Shown: piece by piece, positions 27,998-28,225 of the stretch | How positions within the stretch are numbered: position 1 is the first letter of the stretch | Layout: every line of letters starts with the position of its first letter | NCBI RefSeq assembly: GCF_937616625.2 | Contig: NC_065577.1 | Location: forward strand, 25,247,501-25,311,500 | Direction: 5' to 3' | Origin: Mercurialis annua | Lineage: Eukaryota; Streptophyta; Magnoliopsida; Malpighiales; Euphorbiaceae | Length of the DNA stretch: 64,000 bases | Made by a program: the position numbers and the translations under genes | Notes under the pieces: model-generated | Databases searched by the model: none | What the model saw: only the letters and a program-made list of their open reading frames with translations | Told to the model about the DNA's origin: nothing

Positions 27998-28225
27998 ATG
28001 GCGCGTACAAAGCAAACAGCAAGAAGATCGATCGGAGGAAAGGCCCCAAGGAAGCAGCTGGCTAAAAAGGCAGCAAGAAAGTCTGCGATTGAGGCGTTGG
28101 TTTCGTCCGAGGTTGTTCCTCCGCCTTCTTCTGCTGTTGTTGCTCTGTCTTCTCCTCTGCCTGTTTTTGGAGTTTCTTCGCCTGCGTTAATTGAGGGTGT
28201 GCCTCCTTCCTCCGGTGGTGTTTAA
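27998..28225 (+). CDS. Histone H3 tail-like N-terminus fused to a Ser/Pro-rich tail (75 aa)
   Basis: Residues 2-30 match the histone H3 N-terminal tail: [19 protein letters not shown], then [10 protein letters not shown]. Counting A as 1, K4, K14, K18, K23, K27 and S28 are present; K9 is R, T11 is I and T22 is K. From residue 30 it leaves H3 and becomes a Ser/Pro/Val-rich tail to the stop, so the histone fold is absent and it cannot form a nucleosome. The tail [15 protein letters not shown] resembles EAVAPVSTFVAALSA near the end of the Tat antisense ORF at 39204, and the 3' flanks also match. An in-frame ATG lies 32 codons upstream at 27902, but the TATA box overlaps it, so the ATG at 27998 is chosen. 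It may be a chimeric or internally deleted retrotransposon gene. Expression is unknown. Confidence 0.55.

Follow-up and report, generated by a model that had tools for sequence, protein, structure and literature searches.

A histone H3 tail in a plant repeat array and its probable in-frame fusion with a retrotransposon antisense-ORF end

The H3-tail ORF

We analyzed a window of 64 kb (the whole 64,000-nucleotide stretch of Mercurialis annua DNA, numbered from its first base), in which a short, intact ORF opens with the N-terminal tail of histone H3. The features of the locus are as follows.

27684-27964, + strand: promoter/5'UTR module P, probably from a host histone H3 gene (recurrent block and motifs)
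27998-28225, + strand: H3-tail ORF, intact, 75 codons (ATG 27998-28000, stop 28223-28225)
27998-28087, + strand: codons 1-30, Met followed by residues 1-29 of the histone H3 N-terminal tail, carrying R9, I11 and K22 (tblastn, PDB)
28088-28225, + strand: codons 31-75 and stop, non-H3, rich in P, S, V and A; probably derived from the C-terminus of a Tat/Retand-type antisense ORF (G+C periodicity, DNA match)
28367-28446, + strand: 3' flank element, with short palindromes on both sides of TTTGGCCGTTGCCTT and a strong hairpin predicted (sequence match, fold)
28640-28712, - strand: short stretch read as FINVKGDQEIAARCYTIAMKETKE, possible Tat-type pol remnant (presumed from resemblance)

There is no doubt that codons 1-30 encode histone H3 sequence. 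A canonical H3 query run against the window with tblastn matched 27998-28087 at 27 of 30 residues (90%, E 3.9e-12); this is the sole significant H3 match in the 64 kb, the second being a chance hit with an E value of 8.1, and the H3-tail ORF itself is present in the window as a single copy. A search of the PDB with the ORF recovered 135 distinct sequences at E<=0.01, and the H3 chains among the best 60 of these align from query residue 1 or 2 to residues 30-34, with E values from 2.8e-9 to 2.7e-8. The identity to H3 ends after A29: tblastn detected no histone fold (H3 residues ~40-135) past residue 30 of the ORF, and Pfam returned no match to PF00125 in it at E<=1, only families below their cutoffs, such as PAF (15.2 bits against 23.4). 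An earlier note on this DNA had described a frame that begins with an H3 tail and is no longer H3 after residue 29, a description that these searches bear out.

Relative to H3, in mature numbering, the tail carries the changes K9R, T11I and T22K, and it retains K4, K14, K18, K23, K27 and S28. The earlier note had listed R9 and I11, both of which are present, and had overlooked T22K. The start codon lies in a good context (AAATGG). An in-frame ATG further upstream, at 27902, gives a 107-aa reading and is seen in this copy only among the copies of the upstream block; as it is positioned just past the TATA box, it probably precedes the transcript start.

A recurrent promoter-like module upstream of the ORF

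Module P recurs twice elsewhere in the window.

18812-19093, - strand: copy of module P, with a different repeat after it in place of the H3 part (94.0% identity)
35074-35346, + strand: copy of module P, with a different repeat after it in place of the H3 part (90.8% identity)

The module is a discrete block of 281 bases, which at 27684-27964 ends sharply, 33 bases 5' of the ATG; both other copies lack the H3 part and stop at the same base. The earlier note had reported a TATA box ahead of the ORF, and one indeed begins at 27896; what is new here is that the TATA/5'UTR block is a discrete module that recurs without the H3 part. In addition to this TATA box (TATAAA), the block contains two CCAAT motifs, two E2F-like matches (among them TTTCCCCG), ACCGTCAGAT and ATCCAACGG, a set that we take to be typical of plant histone promoters. 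CCAAT (163 occurrences), TATAAA (144) and E2F (38 matches) are all common in the window. ACCGTCAGAT is confined to the three P copies. ATCCAACGG is intact in the 27684-27964 copy alone, and the copy at 35074-35346(+) has no E2F match. The exact octamer CGCGGATC and nonamer CATCCAACG are absent from module P. We consider, on the basis of these motifs, that the module probably derives from a host histone H3 gene; promoter, leader and tail would then have come together from one such gene.

The two other copies lie within an inverted duplication of 96.5% identity (15711-19310 with 38452-34857) and hence amount to one independent case. In both, P runs into a repeat that begins GACGGATC. At 13.2 and 26.9 kb this repeat has an identical starting point although other sequence precedes it, which fits the repeat having replaced the H3 part in the two P copies. 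Thus, P exists without H3 either because the repeat replaced H3 or because P was a separate module first; an independent existence of P before it joined H3 also fits the H3-less copies.

The segment containing the H3 sequence occupies 27632-28850 between repeats of the array (the left match ends at 27631 and the right one starts at 28851), and the corresponding left and right repeats are 12 bases apart at 18.5 kb(-) and 18 bases apart at 35.6 kb(+). By eye, we recognized no LTR, TIR or target-site duplication around the H3 locus. Positions 1-38452 constitute a mosaic array of direct and inverted repeats, among them 8688-13830, which recurs at 22346-27484 with 96.8% identity, and the inverted duplication given above. 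The array also has a repeat of ~290 bases that starts GACGGATC, ends near CTCTGCACACGCAGGGGC and is found in several contexts.

The antisense ORF as a proposed partner for residues 31-75

The comparison partner for the C-terminal part of the ORF is a neighboring retroelement remnant.

38502-38747, + strand: integrase-like end of the partner element (presumed from resemblance)
38818-38896, - strand: copy of the 3' flank element beside the antisense ORF (sequence match, fold)
39129-40586, - strand: broken antisense ORF of a Tat/Retand-like remnant (reading frames)

We presume that 38502-38747(+) resembles an integrase end, and likewise that 28712-28640(-) resembles a Tat-type pol. Across the six frames of the window, the pattern GDQ..A..CY occurs only in the latter stretch (24 residues), whose orientation is the one expected for an antisense ORF; were it indeed pol, the H3 locus would be an internally deleted element with the ORF in antisense. 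Pfam gave no match for this pol-like stretch nor for the scanned pieces of the broken antisense ORF (39129-40586, -), and the Tat/Retand name is accordingly based on layout and presumed resemblance. TRP28 (PF04195) in particular was not matched in the 75-aa or 107-aa reading or in the scanned pieces of the antisense ORF. When homologues of the antisense ORF were sought with one frame read through, the 7993 candidates with the most words in common with it were scored and none reached E<=0.001. The partner has an integrase-like end followed by an antisense coding region, which is the layout of Retand elements as given in PMC11963269, and would on this ground be of Tat/Retand type.

Codons 31-75 of the H3-tail ORF display a marked G+C bias by codon position (0.67/0.58/0.33), a periodicity reached by only 33 of 20000 shuffles and by 41 of 8496 window segments, and the tail of the antisense ORF has the same pattern (0.56/0.56/0.22). 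The rarity of this periodicity suggests that the segment was probably once coding in its present frame. The earlier note had aligned 15 residues of the ORF with EAVAPVSTFVAALSA, near the end of the antisense ORF, at 8/15 identities; the identity is real, and as a protein match its score of 37 does not go beyond composition, with 119 of 2000 shuffles scoring at least as well. Two other pieces of the antisense region outscore the proposed partner (41 and 39 vs 37), which likewise suggests a compositional resemblance. Among 659 stop-free six-frame segments of at least 40 aa, the top three after the ORF itself all come from the antisense region. At the DNA level, 28109-28159 matches 39311-39263(-) with a score of 30, which is reached by 19 of 2000 shuffles when the target is the 300-base end of the antisense ORF (borderline), by 47 of 2000 when it is 1.8 kb, and by 4 of 60 when it is the whole window (unremarkable). 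Of 244 tiles, the best is nonetheless this very place, the next best scoring 26.

The 3' flanks show a clear relationship. Here, 28367-28426 matches 38896-38839(-) at 76.7% (E 1.35e-5) with a score of 50, which none of 1000 shuffles reaches (shuffle best 39); the two overlapping tiles with the element rank first of 246, followed by a next best of 38. The 15-mer TTTGGCCGTTGCCTT, with up to two mismatches, has two sites in the window against 0.08 expected, one in each 3' element. The structured element that the earlier note had seen in both 3' flanks is therefore confirmed. Folding gives z -5.88 for 28385-28446 and z -3.76 for 38818-38880(-), the latter with the palindrome whole (a boundary that cuts the palindrome yields z -0.59), and control stretches adjoining the two elements have no good fold (z 0.19 and -0.87). 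The palindromes of the two elements differ in sequence yet stay palindromic; together with the good folds, this would be in keeping with an RNA structure conserved next to the antisense ORF. Rfam has no match in the window at the gathering threshold and none at E<=1 in 28200-28720. A 16-base motif from the 3' flank also matches 19 viral contigs, presumably by chance.

The weak match at the C-terminus and the strong match in the 3' flank are collinear with the antisense ORF, agreeing with it in both strand and order. Taking the periodicity, the weak C-terminal match, the 3' flank match and this collinearity together, we regard an antisense-ORF origin of codons 31-75 as quite likely. Accordingly, of the fusion of an H3 tail to an antisense-gene C-terminus proposed in the earlier note, the in-frame joining to a coding-like segment stands and the 3' flank is clear, with the C-terminus itself as the weak part.

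Two other correspondences were considered and set aside. An H3 origin of residues 31-75 was rejected, as the best match to H3 31-135 is a run of six residues (PSSGGV/PATGGV) that is out of order for a continuing H3; it sits at the very end of the segment with a score of 25, equaled or exceeded by 85 of 2000 shuffles. Judged by the shuffles only, it does as well as the match to the antisense ORF. An integrase-like match of 28255-28347 to 38600-38505 was rejected as being out of order and of low complexity.

Divergence and homologues

Of the 272 columns compared in module P, 11 (4.0%) set the 27684-27964 copy apart from the other two, a figure that combines its own branch with the shared branch of the others, which have 5 and 5. 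In the tail of the ORF, three amino-acid changes over 67.7 non-synonymous sites amount to 4.4%, assuming a canonical parent. Hence, the tail appears to be diverging about as fast as the flank, with a wide interval given just three events, and K9R needs no selection to account for it. A single base change could yield each of K9R, T11I and T22K.

Among predicted proteins of 41-131 aa, a search with the whole ORF gave 2268 candidates, 2108 of which have E<=0.01; the best match covers 40% of the ORF, namely the H3 tail. Several of the best 120 of these 2108 reach 79-96% coverage at 50-60% identity, and we rejected them as homologues of the ORF as, by eye, they continue as H3, shifted H3 or unrelated sequence. 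With residues 30-75 alone, the same set of proteins supplied 3 candidates, none at E<=1. In viral contigs, 58 pattern matches to the ORF and 4 to the integrase-like end were found, none of which was confirmed; plasmids yielded no match. No full-length element with an H3-tail N-terminus was seen in the 64-kb window.

Origin and possible function of the probable chimera

We favor, with moderate confidence, the reading that the locus is a chimeric gene relic, in which a host H3 gene contributed the 5' end and a retrotransposon antisense ORF the 3' end, the two standing in frame inside the mosaic repeat array; the in-frame fusion of the H3 tail with the antisense-ORF end is itself probable. The host part would comprise the first 30 codons, which are certain, and the promoter and 5'UTR, which are probable. 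Template switching or DNA end-joining would have linked it to the final ~45 codons of a Tat/Retand-type antisense ORF together with the 3' flank of that ORF. If transcribed, the H3-type promoter would give rise to an S-phase mRNA and a short protein starting with ARTKQTAR after removal of Met. That the locus is instead a truncated H3 pseudogene, 30 codons of which landed in the array with chance read-through downstream and a compositional likeness to the antisense ORF, seems unlikely to us. It would account for a protein similarity of residues 31-75 that stays within the shuffles and for the ease with which such a frame arises: a frame that stays open for 45 codons is found at 10972 of the 127726 window positions (8.6%), which is not rare, and 2747 of 5000 base shuffles of codons 31-75 remain open. 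It fits poorly with the in-frame codon periodicity, and with a 3' element that within the window is common to the antisense ORF only, strand and order being alike. The H3-tail ORF is real and probably an in-frame chimera, with an anatomy more interesting than that of the usual pseudogene.

The earlier note had gone further, proposing that a Tat-lineage element may have acquired the H3 tail and that the tail could act as a functional decoy. In its fuller form, a non-autonomous Tat/Retand element that captured a histone promoter would express a mimic that titrates or recruits the readers, writers and erasers of the H3 tail, thereby shielding the element from silencing. We hold this to be improbable. 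The ORF is intact with a good start and keeps K4, K14, K18, K23, K27 and S28, and this lineage offers a precedent in gene23 of Grande, an antisense accessory gene that has a promoter of its own and a product located in the nucleus (PMC7264820). The decoy proposal is nonetheless unsupported: there is one copy in 64 kb and no full-length carrier was seen there, neither the whole ORF (best 120 of 2108) nor residues 30-75 found relatives among the proteins of 41-131 aa, the amino-acid changes approximate the divergence of the flank, and K9R is explicable without selection. Still more doubtful is a whole non-autonomous Tat/Retand family with an antisense gene under a histone promoter, whose S-phase product, an H3 tail unmethylatable at position 9 plus the C-terminus of the antisense protein, would vie for the enzymes that modify newly made H3 tails and so let the family escape silencing. 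A recently born small host gene with an H3 promoter and tail, not carried by a transposon, is very unlikely too: a histone-like promoter block does lie immediately upstream, but the ORF is within a mosaic repeat array next to P copies that have no ORF, and the protein search just described, at the same scope, revealed no homologues. Hence, the functional reading is unsupported and the most likely present role of the H3-tail ORF is none, while the origin that the earlier note proposed is probably right.

Relation to known systems and other elements of the window

Influenza NS1 is a viral histone mimic, with a few H3-like residues at its C-terminus. It is likewise a case of an H3-like tail outside a histone, whereas the present putative mimic consists of 29 N-terminal residues and derives from a real H3 gene. 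If alive, the locus would represent a mobile element of plants that uses a genuine histone tail, driven by a histone-like promoter, permitting a direct test of transposon histone mimicry against silencing. As it stands, the locus presents the 5' end of a histone gene recombined into a repeat array, in frame with a probable retroelement coding sequence, and an ORF with only the H3 tail could be mistaken for a histone by gene annotation.

The closest known counterpart is the Retand/Tat antisense ORF (aORF-3R; gene23 of Grande, ORF2 of PvRetro13 and the TRP28/PF04195 proteins), which is described for Retand in PMC11963269, given that the 3' flank and, weakly, the C-terminal segment resemble those of the local antisense ORF; the locus differs from it in having no TRP28, in missing nearly the whole body and in its N-terminal H3 tail. 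The word "histone" has 0 occurrences in the main text of PMC7264820 and of PMC11963269. Plant retroelements are well known to capture genes (PMC13317346 and PMC7264820). In the hybrid ORF of maize Bs1 and the TRIM and Rider transductions (PMC13317346), a host gene fragment and element sequence likewise make up a chimeric ORF. Transduced genes are usually in sense, according to PMC7264820; here, the captured part would supply the promoter and lie antisense to the element. Among the literature matches listed, as titles and abstract starts, none deals with a plant retroelement whose ORF contains an H3 tail, and those on promoter motifs offered nothing of use for the histone assignment of module P.

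Beyond the array, the window contains a broken Ty3-type polyprotein at 45299-47580(-) with matches to protease, reverse transcriptase and integrase zinc-binding domains. Two direct repeats of 2.5 kb (47814-50357 and 54680-57140), which are 95.2% identical, are possibly the LTRs of one element, and a gag zinc knuckle is found at 57013-57390(-).
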